DNA from: Acidobacterium sp.
Lineage (GTDB): Bacteria > Acidobacteriota > Vicinamibacteria > Vicinamibacterales > UBA2999
DNA: 36,345 nucleotides
Assembly: GCA_002737365.1 (NCBI GenBank)
Contig: NSIL01000026.1
Span: 1-36,345, forward strand
Direction: 5' to 3'
Shown: one piece after another, positions 685-11,700 of the stretch
Layout of the letters: the number at the start of each line of letters is the position of its first letter
Numbering within the stretch: position 1 is the first letter of the stretch
Made by a program: the position numbers and the translations under genes
The notes under the pieces: model-generated
What the model was told of the DNA's origin: nothing
Database searches by the model: none
What the model saw: the letters and a program-made list of their open reading frames with translations, nothing else

Positions 685-1836
685 ATGCGCTGGATCCTGA
701 TCGCTCTATTTAGTATCGCCCTCGCGCCGGCGCTGGCCTCCGCCCAGGCCACGAAGAGTGCCGAGCCCTTTGCGGTGGGCACGTTCACGTTCGACGGGCA
801 GGAGGGGCTGGGCCTTGTCCTCCGGCAACAACTGGTCGTCGAGCTCGACGCCGCCAATCGCAACCTGCAGATCGAGCCGGGCGTGCCGAGGATGGCGATG
901 CCCGAAGACATGCTGCAGCTCATCGGTCTCTACGAGTACGGCCTCAAGAGCCGGCTCTATGAGATCGTGAACCACCTCGTCAACACCAGGCAGCTCGAGG
1001 GCCAGCGGCCGAGCTTCATCCACGACGTGAAAACCGTCCGCACGCTGGCGCCCATCCGTTATCCCGGAAAGATCCTGAATGCCGCGGGGAACTTCTACAC
1101 GCATACCTGCGAGGGCTGCAGCCCCCAGCAGCAGGCGGAGAACGACAAGAAGATCCGCGCGAACCGGGGCGTCCCGTATCTCTTCCTGAAACCGGCCCAA
1201 GGCGCAGTCATCGGCAACAACCACGACATCGTCCTTCCCGCTGGCCGCGACCGCATCGACTGGGAGATCGAGTTCGGCACGGTGATCGGCCGCGCGGCCC
1301 GGTACGTCTCGGCCGCCAACGCCCAGGACTACGTCTTCGGCTACACGGTGACGATCGACGTCTCCGATCGCGGCGGACGGCCCGGCGACCGCTCGTCCGA
1401 CTGGTTCGTCGGGAAAGGCCACGAGACCTTCGCACCAATGGGCCCTTGGATTTTGCCGAAAGAGTTTTACGGCGATCCCATGAAACGCCTTCACCAGCAA
1501 CTCTCGATCGACGGCGTGAAGGTGCAGGAAGCGAGGGCGGGCGACATGATCCACAACATGTGGGAGCTGATCGAGTACGGTTCGTCGATCATCACGCTCT
1601 TCCCGGGTGACGTGATCAACAGCGGCACCACGGGCGGCACCTCCTCAGGCGCCTTCAAGCAGGGCACTCGTACGGGGTATCTCAAGCCTGGCGAGACGAT
1701 CGAGGCCACGATCGAAGGCATCGGCACGCTCCGTCATCGTGTCGTCGCCGGAAAGCCGCTGCCGACCGACCTGACGGGCTCGCAGCTTCCGGCGGTCGGC
1801 ACATACAAGCCGGCAGGAGCTCGCCCGCCACAGTAA
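685..1836 (+). CDS. Secreted fumarylacetoacetate hydrolase family protein
   Basis: A 383-residue protein of the fumarylacetoacetase (FAH) fold, whose members cleave C-C bonds or hydrate or decarboxylate 2-oxo acids at a divalent metal. Residues 1-20 (MRWILIALFSIALAPALASA) form a signal peptide, so the product is probably periplasmic, which is unusual for FAH enzymes. The catalytic half holds the expected acidic metal ligands in DWEIEFGTVIG and in the DVSDR segment, then SSDWFVGKG, and near the C-terminus PGDVINSGTTGGTSSG. A CEGC pair lies in the middle. The start is ATG 685, chosen because AAAGGGGAA (672-680) is a good ribosome site and because the signal peptide starts there. A longer frame opens at TTG 598 but has no such support. 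A strong terminator follows at 1866, so it is likely monocistronic. The substrate is not predictable. Confidence 0.85.
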   Translation: MRWILIALFSIALAPALASAQATKSAEPFAVGTFTFDGQEGLGLVLRQQLVVELDAANRNLQIEPGVPRMAMPEDMLQLIGLYEYGLKSRLYEIVNHLVNTRQLEGQRPSFIHDVKTVRTLAPIRYPGKILNAAGNFYTHTCEGCSPQQQAENDKKIRANRGVPYLFLKPAQGAVIGNNHDIVLPAGRDRIDWEIEFGTVIGRAARYVSAANAQDYVFGYTVTIDVSDRGGRPGDRSSDWFVGKGHETFAPMGPWILPKEFYGDPMKRLHQQLSIDGVKVQEARAGDMIHNMWELIEYGSSIITLFPGDVINSGTTGGTSSGAFKQGTRTGYLKPGETIEATIEGIGTLRHRVVAGKPLPTDLTGSQLPAVGTYKPAGARPPQ

Positions 1837-1865
1837 GCGGCCCGCCGCCGTACCTTTAAACAAAG

Positions 1866-1896
1866 CCCGCCTCGGATCAAATCCGAGGCGGGTTTC
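1866..1896 (+). terminator. Rho-independent terminator after the FAH gene
   Basis: A perfect 12-bp stem, CCCGCCTCGGAT paired with ATCCGAGGCGGG, closes a CAA loop and is followed by TTT. It begins 30 bases after the stop codon at 1836. The flanking AAA on the left makes it weakly bidirectional. Confidence 0.85.
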
Positions 1897-1914
1897 GCGC
1901 GCCTCTCGCCACTT

Positions 1915-2277
1915 ACCCAGGGTCCATGGCCGGTCTCGTCGCTCGCCTTTCCTCCCGAGTCAACCTACGGACCGTTCTCAGACGCGGGTCCCACGATCGC
2001 TGAATTTGAAACAGATTTTTCAGCCGCATTGGATACCGATCTTCAAGGCGTTGCTGTCTCCAGTGCCACTGCGGCGCTGCATCTTTCGTTGCTGGCTTTG
2101 GGAGTAGGGCCCGGCGATGAGGTAATTGTCCCTTCGCTGACCTTTGTGGCATGCGCCAGAAACTACCTGCCGGAGGCCTCCAGGTTGGAGGCTGCGCTAG
2201 AGCGGGAACTGGGGATTGCGGCCGATCTCATCAAGGGCGATCGGGGCATTTTTGAGGTGCTGGCGGTCAACGGGTAA
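1915..2277 (+). pseudogene. Chimeric remnant: DegT-type aminotransferase head joined to SelW-like (Rdx) tail
   Basis: One open frame with no ATG or GTG start carries two unrelated protein pieces. Codons from about 1960 to 2150 read like the N-terminal part of a DegT/DnrJ/EryC1/StrS PLP aminotransferase: [15 protein letters not shown], then [19 protein letters not shown] and [14 protein letters not shown]. Directly after TFVA the frame becomes [19 protein letters not shown] and [16 protein letters not shown]. This resembles the Rdx/SelW family, thioredoxin-like small redox proteins whose CxxC/CxxU motif precedes a Y-x-P-x-A helix. The second Cys of that motif is absent and the tail stops before the usual ending. 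The PLP lysine region and most of the aminotransferase are gone. The aminotransferase part is clear; the SelW part is short and less certain. The frame is the same as that of the FAH gene upstream, with no stop codon in between except the FAH stop itself. Confidence 0.6.
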
Positions 2278-2280
2278 TCC

Positions 2281-2615
2281 GACTAGAGATTTGGTCGTCC
2301 CCGGCGGCTGGCGGCGCTTTGTTACCCTCATCCAGCCGAATTAGGCCACTTTCCCTCATGTGTCCTCTTTTAGGAACCGTCATCCCGTCGCCTACAGTTG
2401 GACATTAAATAAATACGCAGAATCGCGTAATTGCCACGAGGGTGAATGCGTCGACTGCGTATCCAGATCGCGTCTGGCCTTCGCGCGTATCACCGGCCCG
2501 TCGGTGGACGGTGATACGCGAGCGCCTCGAGCAAATGCACAAAGGAATAGCGGCGCATGGCGGATGGCTGATTGTTGGAGTTTATGGGCAAAAATTCTGA
2601 GCAGGATTTGTCTTC
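2281..2615. other. Gene-free stretch with one perfect 12-bp inverted repeat
   Basis: No convincing gene is seen. It contains the inverted repeat CGCGTATCACCG (2484-2495) and CGGTGATACGCG (2509-2520) around a 13-base loop. No T run follows on either strand, so it is not a typical terminator. It lies downstream of the minus-strand channel gene and could stabilise the 3' end of its transcript, or be a protein-binding site. Confidence 0.5.
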
Positions 2616-3653
2616 TCACCAGAAAATGCACGTCGCCCCTAACAGCACAAACGTCAGCGGGAACGCCCACCGCGCATAACGATCCACGGCACGAGCGGTT
2701 TCGATGCGGTTGTTCATGGAGAGTGCGGTTGTCGTGATGACTTCCACGAGGGAAAGGAAGACCAAGATGGTGGCCAGAAGAATGAGCGAGTCCAGAAGGG
2801 TGAGGTAGGGCAGCTTGGGGACTTCATTCCCAATGGCGAAGCGGTAGGCGATGAGCGTGAGAACGGAAGTCACGGCCACGCTAATCTGTGAGGCTCCCAT
2901 GGTGGGGTCGATCCAGAAGACCGCCCACGACATGAAGACGATGAGCAGCAGAGGCAGGATAACCTTGAGAAGGTAATGCTGCGGCCTCCGCGAGGCGGCA
3001 AACTCAATGCCGTAGCCGACGAGTTCGTTGCCCGGCGTGAGGGTGTAGGGATTCGGCCCTGCGCCGACGGAGGTGACGACCCAATCCTGGATCGTGAGCG
3101 GCTGGGCATGCCCGACGCCTTGCGGAAGTCCCGCGGCGACTGCGGATGCGGCGGGCCCCAGTTCGATCTCGCCCGGACGGGCGTTGGTCACGACAAGTTC
3201 CACGCGGAAGACCGCTTGGTCGAACGGGAAGCGCCGCAGGTTCAGTGGTTGCTGGAATGAGCCGATGAGCCGCTGGCGGTAAATGACGTCGCCGTTCGGC
3301 GTGACATTTACGGTCTCCTGGAAGGTGCGCTTCATTGCGGCCCCCTCGTTGATAATGAGCCACTGTGGATGCCAAACCTGCCCGATGGGATAGGTTCTCA
3401 CCCCAGGACCGGCATGAGCAAGGGCGGGGTCGTACCAGCGGATCACGAGTACGAGACTTGCGGAAAAGCTCTGCGTCGCGCTGTCGATCTGCCAGATATC
3501 CGCGAACCATGCGGCGATTTCCACCCTGGTCGGTCCCGAGTCCGCTCCCGGACGGGTTGGGCCGAGTGGAAGCGGCACGGCCTCGGCCACCGCGCCACCC
3601 AGCGACACGGCCAGGCTGATAAGGAGAAGGCGGGTGCGCATCGAACGAATCAT
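2616..3653 (-). CDS. Prokaryotic pentameric ligand-gated ion channel (Cys-loop/Pro-loop receptor family)
   Basis: A 345-residue homologue of bacterial pLGICs such as GLIC and ELIC, which assemble as pentamers in the inner membrane and open a pore on ligand or proton binding. Residues 7-25 form a signal peptide. The extracellular beta-sandwich holds IRWYDPAL (71-78), VWHPQWLIIN (93-102) and the Pro-loop RRFPFDQAVFRVEL (140-153), the bacterial form of the Cys-loop without cysteines. Four membrane helices follow: M1 about 226-247, M2 about 253-275 (ISVAVTSVLTLIAYRF), M3 about 284-306, and M4 about 327-345, ending at IFW with no tail. Length and order match the family. The start is ATG 3653; ATG 3641 is also possible, and neither has a strong ribosome site. 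An in-frame ATG at 3875 would put 74 hydrophilic residues in front of the signal peptide and is less likely. It lies 260 bases after the SAM-synthetase-like gene on the same strand. The ligand is unknown. Confidence 0.88.
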   Translation of the reverse strand: MIRSMRTRLLLISLAVSLGGAVAEAVPLPLGPTRPGADSGPTRVEIAAWFADIWQIDSATQSFSASLVLVIRWYDPALAHAGPGVRTYPIGQVWHPQWLIINEGAAMKRTFQETVNVTPNGDVIYRQRLIGSFQQPLNLRRFPFDQAVFRVELVVTNARPGEIELGPAASAVAAGLPQGVGHAQPLTIQDWVVTSVGAGPNPYTLTPGNELVGYGIEFAASRRPQHYLLKVILPLLLIVFMSWAVFWIDPTMGASQISVAVTSVLTLIAYRFAIGNEVPKLPYLTLLDSLILLATILVFLSLVEVITTTALSMNNRIETARAVDRYARWAFPLTFVLLGATCIFW

Positions 3654-3913
3654 GAAAAAAGATTCTGCATTGCCTCTAAGAATACCACTCCACGTTTTCC
3701 TTTGGCAGCAGTTCCAATCCCTGTTGGGAGTTCGATCAGAGCGAAGCGGGTGCCATCCCCGACGTGGTGCATATGAAGCGCGCGGACCTCGGACAATCCG
3801 GCGATACTTCTGCCGCACGCGCAGGTATTCCTGATCGTCAGGGTGGTCGGGTTCCGACCACACAGGGGGAGTCATTCGTGTTCGACCCTCAGCTCCATCA
3901 GTTTCCGCGCGGA
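3654..3913. other. Intergenic stretch between the channel gene and the four-gene operon
   Basis: The minus strand is open through this stretch in the channel frame, with an ATG at 3875 preceded by GAGGG, but the encoded peptide is hydrophilic and resembles no family I know. A weak 6-bp hairpin, GGTCGG/CCGACC, lies at 3845-3859 and could end transcription of the upstream operon, though no T run follows. No clear promoter for the channel is seen. Confidence 0.4.
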
Positions 3914-4984
3914 CTAGTTCCATGGCAATGACGCATCGATGAAGTGCGCGCCGGCGCCGAGCGCGGCGACGTAGGCGCCACCGCAATAGCGCTCGCGCAC
4001 CGCTGAGTGAGCGAACCAGCTGGGGGGCAACTGCTCCGCGCGGCGATCCATCTCATACACCACGTCCAGCGGCGCGTCGCGATTGGGCGCATACGCCACC
4101 ACCACCCGGCACTCGCGCGCGCCGGTCCGCACGGCCCGCAGCGCCGCGTGTCTCGCAGCATACGCGCCCACGCGGTCGATGTGGCTCAGGTCCTTGCCCG
4201 ACAACGCCCCGCCACCGATGGCCACCCGCGGTCCGTAGTAGTCCGCCACCAGCTTGCGGCCGGTCTGCCCGTTGTCGCCATCGCTGCCACCGTTCAGCAG
4301 AGGCCCGTTGGGGTTGATGAGCAGCTCGAGGTCGTCGAACCGCGCCGCCCATCGCGGGTCGCACGTTTGGAGGTGCGCGTAGGCGTCCCGCACATCGTCC
4401 ACGATGCGCGCCGTCAGTTCCAGGAGGGACACCTCCGGCAACTGCTGCAGCGTAACGAGAATCTGTTCCACCTGCCACTGGTCCGTGCCCTCGCGCACGC
4501 GCACCAACAGCTTGCCGTCCGGCCCCTGGCCCGCGAGCCGGCCGTCCCGGCAACTCTGCGCGAGTGCCGCGCCGAGCGTGTGCGCGAGGAAATGCTCGGG
4601 CGGCAGCCACGCCACCTTCGCGTCATAGCCGGCCCAGCCAATCGAGATGCACTGGTCGTTCACGTGATCCGTCCACGTGCGCGGGTCCTCGCGCCGCTGG
4701 CACACGGTGTCGCGCACTTGGTAGCGGTCGGCCTCGATGGCGTTGGGGGTCACATAGCCGATGCCGCGTCCGGTGGCGCGGACAATCTCGGCCAGGTCGC
4801 GCGCCAGGGGCTGTCGCGTGACGATGCCGCCGGTGAGAAAGACCTGGTCACACCAGGTGCTCATCTCTACCTGGCAGTAGGCGCGCGCGTCGGCCTGGTA
4901 GCACTCGGCCACGATGGCGTCGGCCACCTGGTCGCAAAACTTGTCCGGGTGTCCCGGCAGAACCACTTCGCTCATGCGGATCAT
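3914..4984 (-). CDS. Divergent S-adenosylmethionine synthetase (MetK-like)
   Basis: A 356-residue member of the SAM synthetase family, which joins ATP and methionine into SAM and releases phosphate and diphosphate. Canonical MetK proteins are about 380-400 residues. Key motifs are kept: GHPDK at 11-15, DGK at 156-158, GGSDGDNGQTGRK at 232-244 (canonical GDxGLTGRK), and the phosphate-binding GGGALSGKD at 257-265 followed by HIDR at 269-271. The region around 109-116 (NDQCISIG) replaces the usual GAGDQG loop, and the N-terminal part differs from housekeeping enzymes. Catalysis looks possible, but the sequence is clearly that of a side branch. Its ATG (4984) overlaps the TGA of the VWA gene in an ATGA, so it is the last gene of the operon with the MoxR ATPase. 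A preceding CGAGG may help initiation. The housekeeping MetK is presumably elsewhere. The product could be SAM or a related adenosyl compound. Confidence 0.85.
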   Translation of the reverse strand: MIRMSEVVLPGHPDKFCDQVADAIVAECYQADARAYCQVEMSTWCDQVFLTGGIVTRQPLARDLAEIVRATGRGIGYVTPNAIEADRYQVRDTVCQRREDPRTWTDHVNDQCISIGWAGYDAKVAWLPPEHFLAHTLGAALAQSCRDGRLAGQGPDGKLLVRVREGTDQWQVEQILVTLQQLPEVSLLELTARIVDDVRDAYAHLQTCDPRWAARFDDLELLINPNGPLLNGGSDGDNGQTGRKLVADYYGPRVAIGGGALSGKDLSHIDRVGAYAARHAALRAVRTGARECRVVVAYAPNRDAPLDVVYEMDRRAEQLPPSWFAHSAVRERYCGGAYVAALGAGAHFIDASLPWN

Positions 4985-6327
4985 GATGGCAACCTCGACA
5001 GCTGGGTATAGGGAAGCCCGGCGCGCTGCAGCAACGCCGCGTTGCCATCCCTGGTGACAATCGCGTGCAGACGGATGCCGCCTGCGGCCGCCATTTGCGA
5101 CGCCTTGATGTGCTCGATGTAACCGTCGGTGACGATGATGGCGGCGCGCGGCCGGGTGCGCGCCACGTGGTCGAGCACGCAGCCGAGGCTGGTGCCGCCC
5201 GTGGTGTCGGCAACCAGGCGCCCCTGCTCGATGCGGGCCGGCGCCACGACGTTGCTGAACGCCCAGAACGGCCGCCGGATGTACGGCGTGAGCCGCCCGA
5301 GCAGCGCGACGATCAGCGGCATCTCCGCGTCCATCGAGCCGCTGACGTCCAGGTAGACGTGGGCCGAACCGGCGCGGACGGGCTGCGTCGTGTCCCAGTG
5401 CGCCTCCGGCAGAAACGCGCTCCATAGCGACCGCAACACCGCACGTCGATCGCCGGGCGACAGCACCGGCAGCACACAACTGGTGGCCGCACGTTCAGTA
5501 GCCACCGACGCCCGGTCTGGCAGCAGGTGACGCCGCAGCACCGCATACGCCTCACGGCACCACTGCTCGACAGCCCGGTCTGCCGCCCGCACCTCGTTGC
5601 GATAGGCATTCGCCCCGACGCCGTGACCGCGAGGGCTGCGGAAGACGCCCGACCCGTTCATGGCCTTGAGCGCGGAGTCGAGCGCATCGGCCAGCGCGGC
5701 AGCCCCTTCGCCTTGGTCGCGACCTGCGGCATCAAGGGCGTCATGGTTGCCCAGCAGGACGACCGTCTGGGCAGTGCGCCTGAGGTGGTCGCGGGCGAAG
5801 TCGCGGATGTCGTCGGCGACCAGACGGCCGTCGTAGAGAGCGCCCCATGCCGAAAACAGCCGGCGCTCGGCCGCGCGCCCCCGGCCGCTCCAGTCGTATT
5901 GCGCGATCAACAGCCGCTCCTCTGCGGTCGGCGGTCGCAGCAACCGGTCCACGCCCGTCGCCTTCGCGTAGTAGCCGCTCATCATCGCGCTGTACTCGGG
6001 GCCGAGACTGCGATGAATGATCGCGTTGATCACCGCATCCAGCGCCAGGTGCTCCGGGGGCGTGAGCTGGGTGGTGCGCTCGGTGTGCCGCAGCAGCACA
6101 TGCAGGAACTCGTGGCAGATCACCGCCTTCACCTCCGACTCGGTGCGGCAGTGCTCGCCGATGAACGCCAGGTTCACGAGCAGCCGCGGCCGTTGGTCGC
6201 AGGTCACGGCCAGCGTCGGCACCGTGTCGGTGAACTCGGTCTCCAGGATCTTGAGCACCGCGCGGATCGCCAGCGGGTTGTCGTCGATCAGCTCCCGGCA
6301 AATAGCGTGAAATTCACTGGCTGTCAT
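4981..6327 (-). CDS. Metallopeptidase-like and VWA-domain protein (DUF2201 type)
   Basis: A 448-residue protein with two parts. The N-terminal half has an HExxH zinc motif, HEFLH at 72-76, followed by a helix with D97 and N101, as in the putative metallopeptidase domain found with VWA-like DUF2201 proteins. The C-terminal part is a von Willebrand A fold with a full metal-ion-dependent adhesion site: DVSGS at 327-331, TTGGTS at 375-380 and VTDGY at 399-403. There is no signal peptide, so it is cytoplasmic. Such VWA proteins work with MoxR AAA+ ATPases, which is the gene two places upstream here. ATG 6327 overlaps the stop of the small upstream gene and the TGA at 4981-4983 overlaps the MetK-like start. 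I infer a VWA adaptor or protease whose activity is gated by the ATPase. The peptidase role itself is unproven for this family. Confidence 0.82.
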   Translation of the reverse strand: MTASEFHAICRELIDDNPLAIRAVLKILETEFTDTVPTLAVTCDQRPRLLVNLAFIGEHCRTESEVKAVICHEFLHVLLRHTERTTQLTPPEHLALDAVINAIIHRSLGPEYSAMMSGYYAKATGVDRLLRPPTAEERLLIAQYDWSGRGRAAERRLFSAWGALYDGRLVADDIRDFARDHLRRTAQTVVLLGNHDALDAAGRDQGEGAAALADALDSALKAMNGSGVFRSPRGHGVGANAYRNEVRAADRAVEQWCREAYAVLRRHLLPDRASVATERAATSCVLPVLSPGDRRAVLRSLWSAFLPEAHWDTTQPVRAGSAHVYLDVSGSMDAEMPLIVALLGRLTPYIRRPFWAFSNVVAPARIEQGRLVADTTGGTSLGCVLDHVARTRPRAAIIVTDGYIEHIKASQMAAAGGIRLHAIVTRDGNAALLQRAGLPYTQLSRLPS

Positions 6328-6815
6328 GCGTAGAACTCCCGTCCGTCGAACAACTCCAGTTGACGCGTCAGGCTTGCACGGGTCCACAGCACGGGCCGGA
6401 CCGGGTCGTACAGCCACGGCGTGCTGAGGCCCAATATCAGCGTTTGGTAGAGCGCATCAGCGGGCGATAGCGTCTCGATGGGCACCCGTTGCGGTACCAG
6501 ATCAATCCGGCACAGGCACGCCTCGATTGGCAGCGCGATGGCGGCGCGGGCCTCGCGCTCGTCGGCGAAACCGCACTGCTTCAGCAGCTCGAGCACGACG
6601 CTGAGCGGATTGCGCCTTCCGAAGTCCAGGCCCACGCGCAGCACGCGCGGACATCTCACCGCCCCTTGGTCGTGTCCCAGCACGGTGGTGAAAAGACGGC
6701 TGGTTCGCTGGCGGCTCATCGGGCCGCCGCTGTTGGCCAACCGCTCGAGGTCGTTGGCCCGCCATCCAGCCCTCCAGCCAGTCTCGCTCGACGAGGCGAT
6801 GGTGACCATGTTCAT
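6324..6815 (-). CDS. Small unknown protein of the MoxR/VWA operon
   Basis: A 163-residue protein I do not recognise. It has a basic N-terminal third (residues 15-45, several R, including GGPMSRQRTSRLF), a central piece LRVGLDFGRRNPLSVVLELL, and a C-terminal part with ALYQTLILGLSTPWLYDP and LTRQLELFDGREFYA. There is no signal peptide, membrane segment or obvious catalytic motif. It starts at ATG 6815, overlapping the ATPase stop in an ATGA, and ends in another ATGA with the VWA gene. Four genes joined this way will be translated in fixed proportion, so I infer that this protein is a structural partner linking ATPase and VWA protein. A minus-strand frame continues upstream inside the ATPase gene, but that is a shadow. 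Confidence 0.75.
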   Translation of the reverse strand: MNMVTIASSSETGWRAGWRANDLERLANSGGPMSRQRTSRLFTTVLGHDQGAVRCPRVLRVGLDFGRRNPLSVVLELLKQCGFADEREARAAIALPIEACLCRIDLVPQRVPIETLSPADALYQTLILGLSTPWLYDPVRPVLWTRASLTRQLELFDGREFYA

Positions 6816-8239
6816 GCCGCCCCCGTGGCGAACACCTGGACGCAGCGGTGAAACTCCTGCTCGAACTCGCGCGGCCGCGCGACGACGATCTTGTTGACGA
6901 TGCAGAAGTAGAACAGCAGCTGAGCGCGCTCGCGCCGCGCGGCCCCGAGGCGGCCGAGTACCGGCGCGTAGGTCGCCAACTCCGGGTGCGTGCTGGCCGG
7001 CGTCCCAAGCCGCTCGTGCCAGCTGACCTCGCCGTCCACGGTTAGCAGCGGCTGCGCGAAGCGCCCAAGATCGTTCACGCCCTCGGCACCGATGGGGAGG
7101 CGGCCCGACACGGCGGCGGCATAAGCGGCCAGGGCAAACGCCGCGGCGCGCTCTGTTGGTTCGTTGGCCAGCAGTTGCTCCACGGCCAGCGTGCCGGTAT
7201 CGGGATCGGGGCAGTGCTCGAGTAAAAAGCTGGCCTTGCCGTCGAGCGTGGGTTCGAGATGAAACAAGTGGACCCAGCGATCGGCGCCCCGCAGCATGGC
7301 GGCGTCCCAGGCCAGCCGATGCGCGGCGGCCACCTTGTCGGCGTCCGCCGCTGCGCCCCAGGCGCGCTGTGGGAGGCTGGCGTCGACCGCGGCGCGGAAG
7401 AGCGCGTCGGTCCTGCGAACGCCGAGCGTATCGGCCGTCAGGCCCTCGACGATGGACGTGGCCAAGAGCGTGCGCGTGACCAGCCGCGCGCGACGCGGCG
7501 ATAGGCGGATGCCGCCGGATCGAAGCGCGGTCACGAGGGCGCACACATAATCGACAATCGGCGCGGGACAGTGGTCTACCCGCTCCTCGAACGACTGCCG
7601 CCACACCGCCAGGTCCGCCTTCAGCCGTCCGCGATCGTCGGCCACCCGGCCTTCGCCGGCGGGGTTCGCCACGAACTGTTGATCGGCGGCGCTGAGGGTG
7701 TCCCAGTCGCCGATGTCGAGGACGACTGCAAAACGATCGGCCAGTGCCGGGTCGAGCGGTTCGGCGCCGAGATATTCCTCGGCCACCGACTGGTCGGTCG
7801 TGCATGGGTTCATCGCCGCCCAGCGATAGCGCAGGCTCGCGAGGGCGATGCCCTGGATCTTGCGCTCGTGCACCAGCGAGAACAGGCGGTTCTGGTGCTC
7901 CGGCTTGCAGCGGTTGATCTCGTCAATCAGCACTGACTGAGCGCCCCACACGGTGGCCGGCGTTTCGAGGAAGCGGACAGAGGCTTTGGCCTCGTCCGGA
8001 TAGGGAAAGCCGACCAGGTCGTCGAAGGAGATGAGGCTCGCGTTGTAATGGCGGTGTTCGAGCGCGAGCGCTTCGCTGATGGTATTGAGCAGGAAGGTCT
8101 TGCCCGTGCCGCTGCGGCCGATCAGCAGGATGGGGTCGCCGCTCACGAGTGCGGCGAGGATGACAGGTTCCTGCCGCTCGAAGCCGTAGGCGCCGAGGGC
8201 AGACAGGTAGGACCGTGACGAAAGAGAAATGTCGGACAT
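6812..8239 (-). CDS. MoxR-type AAA+ ATPase
   Basis: A 475-residue AAA+ ATPase of the MoxR group, whose members act as chaperones or remodelling motors for VWA-domain partners. The N-terminal module shows Walker A GRSGTGKT at 41-48, Walker B VLIDE at 103-107, the HERKIQG loop at 124-130, sensor 1 in AAMNP at 141-145, and the arginine-finger segment DPALADRF at 163-170. The remaining 300 residues form a lid and a C-terminal extension with no domain I can name, longer than a minimal MoxR protein of about 330 residues. The start ATG 8239 has GAGG six bases upstream. It is the first gene of the four-gene operon and its stop overlaps the next start. A promoter-like element lies about 120 bases upstream. 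Confidence 0.88.
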   Translation of the reverse strand: MSDISLSSRSYLSALGAYGFERQEPVILAALVSGDPILLIGRSGTGKTFLLNTISEALALEHRHYNASLISFDDLVGFPYPDEAKASVRFLETPATVWGAQSVLIDEINRCKPEHQNRLFSLVHERKIQGIALASLRYRWAAMNPCTTDQSVAEEYLGAEPLDPALADRFAVVLDIGDWDTLSAADQQFVANPAGEGRVADDRGRLKADLAVWRQSFEERVDHCPAPIVDYVCALVTALRSGGIRLSPRRARLVTRTLLATSIVEGLTADTLGVRRTDALFRAAVDASLPQRAWGAAADADKVAAAHRLAWDAAMLRGADRWVHLFHLEPTLDGKASFLLEHCPDPDTGTLAVEQLLANEPTERAAAFALAAYAAAVSGRLPIGAEGVNDLGRFAQPLLTVDGEVSWHERLGTPASTHPELATYAPVLGRLGAARRERAQLLFYFCIVNKIVVARPREFEQEFHRCVQVFATGAA

Positions 8240-8359
8240 GCGGGCCTCATCGTTCGCGGCATTACCACCGACTCGGAGCCGGTTGGTGATCGTCGTAGGG
8301 CCACGTCCCTCGGATCGTCTGGATGACTAGCGGCTGTGTCGAATGACAACAGCAAAATC

Positions 8360-8389
8360 AATATATAGCGATGTGATGATTGATGTCAA
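8360..8389 (-). promoter_or_regulatory. Likely sigma-70-type promoter of the MoxR/VWA/MetK-like operon
   Basis: On the minus strand, TTGACA (8389-8384) is a perfect -35 box. The -10 box is TATATT (8365-8360) with an 18-base spacer, or TATATA two bases nearer. The site is strikingly AT-rich in GC-rich surroundings. A transcript would start near 8353 and have a leader of about 113 bases before ATG 8239. Confidence 0.6.
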
Positions 8390-8776: not shown

Positions 8777-11700
8777 ATGACGTCACGCCGCATGTGGGCC
8801 AGTTCGGCGGCCCTGCTCGTTCTGCTGGTCTTTGCCACCGACGCCTTCGCCCAGATCGATACCGGCGTGATCGTCGGACGGGTCGTCGACGATAGCGGGG
8901 CGGTGCTGCCCGGCGTCACCGTGGTGGCGACGCAAGACGGCACGGGTTTGGCGGCCACCTCGGTCACCAACGATCGCGGCGAGTTCATCTTTCCCGGCCT
9001 GCGCGTCGGTGTCTACGTGGTCACCGCCGAGCTTCAGGGCTTCCGCCGCGCGGTCAGCCGCGAGGTTCGGGTCAGCGTGCAGACGCGGGCGCAAGTGGAC
9101 CTGCAGCTCAGTGTCGGCGCGCTGACGGAAGAGGTCATCGTCACCGGCCGGGCGCAACTGCTGCAAACCCAGTCAGCCGACATCGGCAGCGTCATCGACG
9201 CCCGCCAGGTTCGCGACCTGCCGCTGCTCGGCCGGCGCTACTCGGAGCTGGCATTTCTGTCGCCCGGCGTCGTCGCCGCTCCCGCCGGCATCACCAGTCG
9301 CGGTGAAGACACCTTCTTCAACGCCAATGGCAACTACGCCACCTGGAACAATTACACGCTTGACGGAGCCGATAACAACTCGTTCTCCACCAACCTGCAG
9401 GAGCGCAGTCCTCAAGTAGTGCAGCCGCCGGTAGAGGCGCTGTCGGAGTTCAAGGTGCAGACCCGCACCTACTCGGCCGAGTTCGGCAAGGCGGCCGGCG
9501 CGGTGATCAACGCCTCGATAAAACAGGGCACCAACAAGTACAGCGGCTCGCTGTTCGCGTTTCTCCGCGACGAGGCGCTGAACGCCAACACCTGGGATAA
9601 CAACCGCGCCGGCCGCGCCAAGGGGCCCTTCAACCAGTTGATTGCCGGCGGCACTTTCGGCGGGCCGCTCGTGCGCGGCAAGACGTTCTTCTTTGGCGAC
9701 TACCAGTCGTCGCGCACCGAGCGGGCGTTGTCGCAAACGGCGACGGTGCCGACCGCGCGCATGCGCGCCGGTGACCTGAGCGAGCTCACGGGCAACATGG
9801 TCGCGACCAACGCCTTCGTGCGGCCGGGGTGCGTAGACGCGGTCAACAAGGTCATCAGTGCCGGCTGCTTCGATCCGGTGGCCGCCAAGTTGATCAACCT
9901 CTACCCGATGCCCAATGTTCCCGGCGCGGGCTTCTTCAACAGCAACTTCATCTCGAACGGCATCCTCAACAACAACGTCGACCAGTTCGACGTTCGCGTC
10001 GATCACAGCCTGGCGGCGGGACGCGATCACCTGTTCGCGCGCTACAGCTTCCAGAACACCAACCGGAACGAGCCGCCGCTGCTGGACGACCCGGTGGCGT
10101 CTGGTGACTTTGCCAGCGACATCCTCAACCGCGGACAGAGCGCGGTCGGCGGCTGGTCGCGGGTGTTTGGCGGCACGGTCTTCAACGAAGTGCGCGTGTC
10201 GTATAACAAGGTGCGTTCCGACGTGGTGCACCCGGCGTTCGGCATCGATGCCAACAGCCAGTACGGCATCAAGGGTGTGCCGAAAGACGATCGTTTCTTC
10301 GGTGGCCTGCCGCACATGCCGATCGCCCGCTTCACGCGCCTCGGCGGCCCGTTCTTCCGGCCGCAGTTCCAGGATTCGCAGGTCTTCCAGTTCGCGGAGA
10401 ACCTGACCTGGCAACGCGGCACCCACGCCATGAAGTTCGGCGTCGAGTTCCGGCGCGACAACCTGAACTACATCGACCTGCGGTCGCTGAACGGCGAGCT
10501 CGGGTTCAACGACGGACGCTACACGGGTTTCGGCCTCGGTGACTTCCTGCTCGGCCTGTCGAGTACGCAGCGCCTGACGCTGTTCCACGAGCCCGACCTC
10601 TACGCCAACGGCTGGCAGTTCTATGCGCAAGACAACTGGCGCGTGCGCTCAAACCTGACCGTCACCGCCGGCGTGCGCTACGAGATGTTCACGCCGCTGC
10701 TGGACCAGAACAACCTGCTGACCAACATCGATCCGGCGACCGGCCGCGCCTTTACCGCCAAGGCCGGCAGCCTGTTCGACCGCGCGCTGATCCATCCCGA
10801 TCGCAACGACATCGCGCCGCGCGTCGGCGTCTCGTGGAGCGTGTCGCCGCGCATGGTGGTGCGCGGCGGGTTTGGCATCTTCTATCAACAGACCGATCGC
10901 TACGGCAGCGAAAGCCAGTTGGGCCTCAATCTGCCGCAACTGGTGGACGCCTCGATCACCGCCAACTCCGGCGCCGAGGCGCCCGCCTTCACGTTCGCGC
11001 AGGGCTTCACGCCGTTGACCCCGCAAACCGTCAACCCCGCCATCGTGCAGTGGCGCATCCAGGACCCGAACCAGGACACGCCGGTCGTGCGGCAGTTCAG
11101 TTTCGGTCCGGAGGTCCAGTTCGCCACCAACATGGTGGCGGCGGTCGAGTACGTCGGCAACCGCACCCGTAACGGACGCCGCCTGCGTAACCTGAACGAA
11201 GGCCAGATCGTCAACGGCGCCGTGGTGTTCCCATACGCGCAGTACGGCTACGGCAGCGCGTATCTCGAACAGATTGTCACCAACGGCCGCGCCGACTACG
11301 ACGCGCTCCAGGCCCGCATGCAGAAGCGCATGGGCGGCGGGTTGGCGTACACGGTGGCCTACACCTGGAGCAAGGCGCTCGGCGATTTTCTCGATCACCT
11401 GAGCGCCGGCGGCGGCGCCGTCGGCAACGCCCCTGGCTCAACCTACGCGATGGAGAAAGACTATGGCCTGCTGGCGTTCGATATTCCTCAACGCCTGGTC
11501 ACCAGCTTCATCTACGAGCTGCCGTTTGGTCCCGGCCGTCGCTTCGAACCGAGCGGCGCAGCGGGCGCCATTCTTGGCGGCTGGTCGGTGAACGGCATCC
11601 TCACGCTCAGCGACGGCCGTCCGCTCACCGTCACGACCACCGATCAGGCGGGAACCGGTCCCGGCCGGATTGCCCGCGCCAACTGCCTTGGCGCCGCGGT

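Follow-up and report, generated by a model that had tools for sequence, protein, structure and literature searches.

Comparison with described systems

CbbQ-CbbO, a pair made of a MoxR-type ATPase and a VWA protein, serves Rubisco, and NorQ-NorD is another MoxR-VWA pair with a dedicated client. RavA-ViaA is a MoxR-VWA system too, and passages of PMC3893208 describe MoxR proteins as maturing dedicated complexes. A stretch of DNA of 36,345 nucleotides from Acidobacterium sp. (contig NSIL01000026.1, assembly GCA_002737365.1), here called the window, carries a four-gene cassette in which such a pair is encoded together with a relative of MetK, the S-adenosylmethionine (SAM) synthase or methionine adenosyltransferase (MAT). 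Judged from sequence, the cassette seems to be an accessory module that SAM represses and that serves SAM/methionine homeostasis; its MAT-fold enzyme would use another acceptor and be serviced by its own MoxR-VWA machine. We give this reading a probability of about 0.5. The four genes occupy positions 3914-8239:

6812-8239, minus strand: moxR, an AAA+ ATPase of 475 amino acids (Pfam AAA_5 at 1.2e-8 and AAA_3 at 2.8e-7, over the cut-off)
6324-6815, minus strand: p2, a conserved protein of 163 amino acids without a known family (AlphaFold2 predicted local distance difference test, pLDDT, 84)
4981-6327, minus strand: vwa, 448 amino acids, an N-terminal part with HExxH (HEFLH) and a VWA-like domain with the metal ion-dependent adhesion site (MIDAS) motif DVSGS
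3914-4984, minus strand: the metK-like gene, 356 amino acids, MAT fold with an apparently rebuilt methionine pocket (TIGR01034 165.6 bits; pLDDT 94)

CbbQ-CbbO, NorQ-NorD and RavA-ViaA likewise combine a MoxR-type AAA+ protein with a MIDAS VWA protein and are encoded with an enzyme, but here a MAT paralogue takes the place of the enzyme, HExxH is invariant in the VWA protein, and p2 and a SAM riboswitch are extra. The S-box (SAM-I), SAM-I/IV and SAM-II regulons resemble the locus in having a SAM aptamer in the 5' leader of an operon with a MAT homologue; they differ in that the first genes here encode the MoxR ATPase, p2 and the VWA protein, and that three aptamer classes are used across lineages. 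MetK itself shares the fold over the whole length, the catalytic His14 and the ATP, ribose, triphosphate and metal residues, while the MetK-like protein departs from it in the methionine pocket, the equivalog score, the clade, the length of the 96-118 stretch and the linkage to MoxR and VWA. The metK genes of Streptococcus phages, which lie beside DNA methyltransferase genes, are also accessory MAT homologues on mobile DNA; however, both phage proteins examined are canonical with the pocket kept, and the one region inspected has no annotated MoxR or VWA gene. In Streptococcus phage Javan244 (locus L093, 6001-7038) a canonical-type metK lies upstream of adenine and cytosine DNA methyltransferase genes.

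The cassette was not found described in the passages of open-licence full-text literature that were searched, which is not a claim of its absence from print. The passages of PMC7159879, on MoxR and conflict systems, that deal with adenosyl, methionine or synthetase hold no SAM synthetase, and passages of open-licence texts on DUF2201 held nothing relevant. The combination appears to be new: the MetK-like protein falls outside MetK on two defining counts, and none of the libraries or literature searched holds it. If it is a SAM synthase, it is a variant one.

A conserved, accessory four-gene cassette

The earlier note, made from the letters of the window, had described a four-gene operon coupled by ATGA, and the coordinates, junction sequences and substitution ratios confirm it. 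The genes are joined by three ATGA overlaps of 4 bp (GGCATGAACATG, CGCATGACAGCC and ATCATGATCCGC), and an overlap of the same length is found at 45 of 64 vwa/metK-like junctions of other loci. The ratio of nonsynonymous to synonymous substitution rates (dN/dS) is 0.09-0.35 in all four genes in two pairs (window and L012, window and L004; L numbers are loci, G numbers genomes), and on these values a pseudo-operon was rejected.

A scan for relatives of the MetK-like protein in one genome per species gave 81 loci, of which 80 were kept, with full-length matches 35-93% identical. Eight of the 80 with fewer than 250 matched residues (L037, L075, L084, L086, L088-L091) were left out of the counts of gene order. 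The vwa gene directly precedes the metK-like gene in all 66 full-length loci with at least 1.5 kb available upstream, and moxR is present in 54 of the 55 with at least 4.3 kb, which bears out the earlier claim that the metK-like gene is locked to the MoxR and VWA genes. For p2 there is a direct BLAST match in 39 of 55 loci, and clustering of open reading frames (ORFs) adds more distant homologues (61 usable sequences); in the Gemmatimonadota loci an ORF of about 220-290 amino acids occupies the p2 position and is, by position, a candidate counterpart. Pairwise distances of the four proteins correlate (r 0.81-0.95 over 55 loci), with none of 999 permutations as high. No further gene recurs widely in the flanks of the loci compared, and a fifth gene conserved throughout the cassette was rejected after this comparison.

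The motifs of the MoxR-VWA pair are conserved along with the gene order. In MoxR, D106, E107 and R110 are found in 64 of 64 sequences and K47 and T48 in 62, covering the Walker A and B regions. The VWA protein has H72, E73 and H76 in 69 of 69 sequences and the MIDAS residues D327, S329 and S331 in 68 of 69. PDB sequence matches of the MoxR protein are mainly midasin and 2r44, and those of the VWA protein are insignificant. Against Pfam the vwa product reaches DUF2201 at 0.0011 and DUF2201_N at 0.0073, both under the cut-off, and its VWA domain is below the cut-off too, with the DxSxS motif present. The p2 protein has no Pfam family (61 members scanned, scattered weak matches), and its AlphaFold2 model has no PDB match in Foldseek at E<=0.001, with VIA-align likewise unproductive; a missing match makes the fold neither new nor different.

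The record titles of the carriers name about 14 phyla, a count to be read with the caution that titles of metagenome bins can be wrong. In the window's phylum the metK-like gene is carried by 9 of 396 genomes (E<=1e-45) and p2 by 7, all seven among the nine. A second phylum has p2 in 4 of 395 genomes. Two of these, G441 (genome of L058) and G587 (genome of L062, recognised by a shared contig end), also carry the metK-like gene; none was found in G750 and G832, where the best matches (30% and 34%) resemble canonical MetK and the contig with the cassette breaks off within vwa or p2. Within the window's genus the operon is present in 5 of 9 genomes, and some of the remaining four are incomplete. 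DNA homology to the cassettes of G006 and G004 (genomes of L012 and L004) begins at 8389, and the flanks differ; with L004 it stops at the metK-like stop codon, and with L012 the contig ends there. Because carriage is patchy, homology starts at 8389 and the flanks differ, the cassette is, as far as these comparisons tell, an accessory, mobile unit that has spread horizontally. MetK-like fragments without a complete operon, resembling decayed copies, occur at L084, L086, L089 and L091; at L086, moxR abuts the tail of the MetK-like sequence.

Carriage by phages or plasmids was considered and found unsupported. The viral contigs scanned hold no family member, and both phage proteins examined are of canonical type. 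Among the plasmid and phage matches listed (20 of 124 and 20 of 81 records) identity is 30-34%, as for canonical metK.

A MAT fold with an intact ATP side and an altered methionine side

Pfam finds all three MAT domains in the MetK-like protein (PF00438, PF02772 and PF02773), and the NCBIfam equivalog TIGR01034 scores it at 165.6 bits against a cut-off of 309.4. The AlphaFold2 model (pLDDT 94.2) aligns with solved MATs over residues 1-356 with Z about 40-41 (for 5h9u, Z 41.0 and root-mean-square deviation 2.0 over 345 residues), and identity to the solved MATs listed in the structure alignments is 26-33%. A maximum-likelihood tree built from 97 proteins sets 26 canonical and phage MATs (100/100) apart from 71 family members, which form a main clade (n=63, 99/99) and a Gemmatimonadota-type clade (n=8, 96/87). 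The protein had been called far from housekeeping MetK, and the tree agrees in giving it a separate clade.

Residues were compared between these 71 and 26 proteins in E. coli numbering, by alignment. L030, L037, L053, L073, L075, L084 and L088-L091 were left out as too short or lacking the GHPD motif, L119 because none of its open frames has both motifs, and L086 because no MetK-like ORF was picked there. The window's protein keeps H14, D16, K17, E42, D118, D163, K165, D238, R244, K245, K265 and D271. We take D16, K17, E42, D118, K165, R244, K245, K265 and D271 to be ATP, triphosphate, metal or catalytic residues. Exceptions at the twelve positions among the 71 members are K17 to R in three, R244 to K in one, and one gap at K265 and D271. 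Passages of PMC3853416 give the roles of H14, D163 and D238.

The methionine side looks different. According to passages of PMC3853416, the amine of methionine is bound by E55 and D238, the carboxylate by Q98 and K269 and the side chain by I102, with E55, Q98, I102 and K269 coming from the second monomer; in passages of PMC3793261 the equivalents of A40 and I302, numbered by our alignment, line the SAM pocket. All 26 canonical and phage MATs have A40, E55, Q98, I102, G117, G120, K269 and I302. At E55, Q98, I102, K269 and I302, 62 of the 71 family members keep none of these residues, 8 keep one and 1 keeps two, and A40 is changed in all 71. The substitutions are as follows:

A40: window Q; main clade Q 62, H 1; clade of eight Q 7
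E55: window G; main clade G 31, A 16, S 6, N 3, H 2, T 2, C 2, E 1; clade of eight R 8
Q98: window R; main clade mixed, with Q in 8; clade of eight D 7
I102: window P; main clade P 60; clade of eight P 6
G117: main clade N 55; clade of eight D 8
G120: main clade C 24, S 20, A 18; clade of eight A 7
K269: window H; main clade H 60; clade of eight R 7, K 1
I302: window P; main clade P 63; clade of eight P 8 (P in 71 of 71)

The stretch at position 96-118 is 16-17 residues long in the main clade, 18 in the Gemmatimonadota-type clade and 18-28 in 24 canonical proteins. Taken by its predicted residues, the site has an intact ATP half and a rebuilt acceptor half. The earlier note had stated that all catalytic-type motifs are kept, which holds for the ATP, triphosphate and metal side and does not hold for the methionine side; its label of a divergent SAM synthetase does not fit well either, as the anchors for free methionine are gone.

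SAM riboswitches before moxR

Upstream of moxR is a leader that went unremarked in the earlier note:

8244-8329, minus strand: SAM-I (S-box, RF00162) riboswitch-like leader, ending 4 nucleotides before the moxR start
8360-8389, minus strand: promoter-like TTGACA-N18-TATATT, 11 of 12 consensus matches, by itself no evidence of function

Against RF00162 the leader reaches 36.9 bits (E 4.6e-7), short of the gathering score, which is 44.4. Its alignment contains the aptamer core (GAGGGA..GGCCC, CAACC, GGUG and P1 pairing), and the 3' side of the P1 helix (GAUGAGG) overlaps a Shine-Dalgarno-like GAGG. The first base of the promoter-like TTGACA, 8389, is also where DNA homology to the G006 and G004 cassettes starts, and the leaders of these two genomes match RF00162 below threshold as well (35.3 and 40.3 bits). 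At the same place SAM-I is found above threshold in L016 (78.3 bits), L017 (67.3 bits) and L037. At E<=0.01 RF00162 matches the window's genome nowhere but in the operon leader; in 6 of 48 carrier genomes RF00162 lies at the operon, and in others it lies elsewhere. Folded alone, the leader draws no support from its minimum free energy (z 0.92).

The wider count used loci with at least 300 bp before moxR and aptamers within 700 bp 5' of moxR on the same strand; 69 loci were scanned, 8 had too little sequence 5' of moxR, leaving 61, and L072 and some partial loci were left out. SAM riboswitches at gathering level are present in 29 of the 61: SAM-I in 3, SAM-I/IV in 19 and SAM-II (RF00521) in 7. 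The 61 include near copies (L029/L077, L060/L066, L063/L068), so these counts are not of independent events. The scan covered 851,106 bases and gave 38 SAM riboswitch matches, every one upstream of moxR, on its strand and no more than about 1.5 kb away. A search model, R1, was built here from 24 SAM-I/IV aptamers of the loci. In 42 other sources it gave 14 matches at E<=0.5, each at the moxR 5' end; one, L117, is the same locus as L043 in the model, leaving 13 independent. R1 adds L022, L023, L038, L059, L063, L068, L069 and L085 (E 1e-8 to 0.045), and with these and the weaker matches of L004 and L012, 39 of the 61 loci carry a SAM riboswitch. For three further loci reached through p2, R1 matches strongly 5' of moxR in G750 and G832 (60 and 64 bits) and not in G587; G750 and G832, both Bacteroidota, were reached through p2 alone and have no near copy among the other loci.

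SAM binding represses in S-box riboswitches, according to passages of PMC545781. The predicted aptamers of the window, L016 and L037 stop no more than about 10 nucleotides from the beginning of moxR or its first aligned codon, so control probably works as an off-switch on translation. In L037, L047, L048, L050 and L070 moxR is preceded by a row of two or three SAM riboswitches, mostly with an ORF of no clear family between them. In L044 (4057-4749) a truncated N-terminal domain of canonical MetK sits between two SAM-I/IV riboswitches, just before moxR.

Canonical metK in carrier genomes

A canonical-level MetK match (>150 bits) accompanies the family member in 37 of 40 carrier genomes, the exceptions being G427, G430 and G435. 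Six carriers have more than one canonical copy (G417, G418, G420, G424, G425 and G444), and in all six one of them is on the contig of the metK-like gene, within about 8 kb. Five of these cassette-linked copies were examined and have an intact methionine pocket (one with G for A40). Because canonical SAM synthase genes adjoin the metK-like gene in 6 of 40 genomes, the MetK-like protein would seem to do something else. In G425 a fragment of a metK-like gene lies at the contig edge, and the canonical gene overlaps its end by 8 bp. The canonical MetKs of L020, L029 (L143) and G425 (L140) are 71-80% identical in bins titled as different phyla, and joint transfer of the cassette-linked copies is suggested. 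L064 has a six-gene run on one strand (1025-8081) of canonical metK, a further AAA ATPase gene, moxR, p2, vwa and the metK-like gene, and an adenosylcobalamin (AdoCbl) riboswitch at 9596-9723.

The earlier note had proposed a check for a second, canonical metK in the genome. Relatives have one, as the 37 of 40 carriers show, while in the window's own assembly the metK-like gene is the only metK found. The metK neighbourhood of a congener maps to the end of contig C45 (183,512 of 183,633), which would put metK about 3 kb beyond, and a weaker match (69% identity) on contig C1 may mark the other side of a gap. Most probably the canonical metK of this genome lies in that assembly gap. The argument that the metK-like gene is the only one in the genome and its neighbourhood accidental was rejected, since the congener's locus maps past the C45 end.

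How the cassette may work, and rival explanations

In the favoured reading, high SAM would close the aptamer, hide the ribosome-binding site and keep the operon off; falling SAM would let the MoxR AAA+ ring and its VWA/HExxH partner be made. By analogy with the pairs that serve dedicated enzymes, MoxR-VWA would remodel or activate the MetK-like enzyme, and gene order leads us to infer that this enzyme is the client; p2 may be an adaptor. The enzyme would carry out MAT chemistry, with nucleophilic attack on C5' of ATP followed by triphosphate hydrolysis. Its acceptor would be a derivative of methionine, some other thioether or nucleophile, or a methionine residue in a peptide, and not free methionine held in the canonical way. 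The module is placed in SAM/methionine homeostasis because of the SAM control, the neighbouring SAM synthases and the MAT fold, and another acceptor is favoured since the family has lost the methionine anchors and the genomes have true SAM synthases besides. Somewhat short of even odds is the more specific proposal of a new branch of adenosyl metabolism, in which the 5'-adenosyl group of ATP would go to an acceptor other than free methionine, on an enzyme maintained by an AAA+/VWA-metallopeptidase machine and induced by low SAM where the riboswitch is present.

Several points weigh against the favoured reading. A SAM riboswitch most simply fits product feedback, that is, a SAM synthase, and archaeal MATs hold the methionine carboxylate with another set of residues (passages of PMC3853416), so a protein that lacks the bacterial anchors need not use another acceptor. 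Some members keep an anchor: Q98 in 8 and E55 in 1 of the 63 main-clade members, and K269 in 1 of the other 8. In 22 of the 61 loci neither method finds a SAM riboswitch near moxR (one, L057, has an aptamer 1.45 kb upstream with an ORF between), and Rfam at gathering level gives no riboswitch match on the window. The HExxH region matches DUF2201_N and M48 only below the cut-off. Second canonical metK copies also occur in the non-carriers G029, G034 and G038 (two or three each), and carriers in that same genome comparison have at most one. The link of MoxR-VWA to the MetK-like enzyme is drawn by analogy, and the activity of every family member is a prediction.

The chief rival holds that the protein does make SAM, through a redesigned methionine site, and serves as an emergency isozyme, dependent on MoxR-VWA for activation and shut off by its own product. 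It would explain riboswitch control as in the methionine regulon, the complete ATP/triphosphate site and the MAT fold over the whole length, and the archaeal precedent speaks for it. It is nevertheless rather unlikely: nearly all carriers have a canonical metK, some have a further intact-pocket copy beside the cassette, and beyond the amino-acid anchors the thioether/SAM-side residues I102 and I302 are replaced too, mostly by proline. The MetK-like protein might instead target canonical MetK, either by joining it in a hetero-oligomer or by regulating it. Each MAT active site is formed between two subunits, and E55, Q98, I102 and K269, which the family has lost, are the second-monomer residues in passages of PMC3853416; together with the six genomes that have a canonical copy beside the metK-like gene, this would suit such a partner. 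This is improbable, however, as canonical metK adjoins the cassette only in a minority and I302, A40 and R229 are changed too.

A defence or stress role, proposed in the earlier note, found little to sustain it. Here phage SAM hydrolases would deplete SAM, the riboswitch would open and a MoxR/VWA/MetK-like response would follow. The patchy distribution (9 of 396 phylum genomes, 5 of 9 genus genomes), the helicases near some cassettes (L030 2664-5930, L049 774-3509 and L041 379-3483; DrmD-like, PLD_Helicase and GajB-like) and a solved complex of SAM lyase with MetK (8bb1, among the structure matches) are consistent with it. But SAM riboswitches are classical metabolic switches and point to SAM/methionine homeostasis, PADLOC has no match for three of the proteins and weak generic P-loop matches for MoxR (best 2.3e-5), defence-like genes are few among the 119 flanking ORFs examined, and the viral contigs scanned lack the family, so we consider the idea a long shot, a little more so than the hetero-oligomer. 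An accidental or decaying neighbourhood without shared function could appeal to the degenerate-looking copies L084, L086, L089 and L091. Its probability is close to nil, as it is refuted by the order kept in 66 of 66 loci, the flank comparison and the correlated protein distances; the low dN/dS in the two pairs tested and the three SAM riboswitch classes at the same place also stand against it.

Features beside the cassette

2029-2277, plus strand: truncated DegT/DnrJ aminotransferase fragment (positions 42-79 of 360)
2619-3653, minus strand: homologue of pentameric ligand-gated ion channels (Neur_chan_LBD 1.7e-13, Neur_chan_memb 1.4e-12)

The fragment is perhaps what the earlier note took for an adjoining mobile-element scar, which was not confirmed as such. 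The channel homologue lies downstream of the cassette on the same strand, and its gene is not a conserved neighbour of the cassette in other loci. There is no tRNA in the window.

What the cassette may mean

One enzyme is taken to suffice for SAM synthesis. A cassette that occurs widely, often behind a SAM riboswitch, and combines a MetK paralogue with MoxR and VWA proteins may point to an unrecognised branch or an emergency mode of SAM/methionine metabolism. It is an unusual case of three aptamer classes placed before one gene set, and its MetK-like protein is a candidate for a MAT-fold enzyme with another acceptor.

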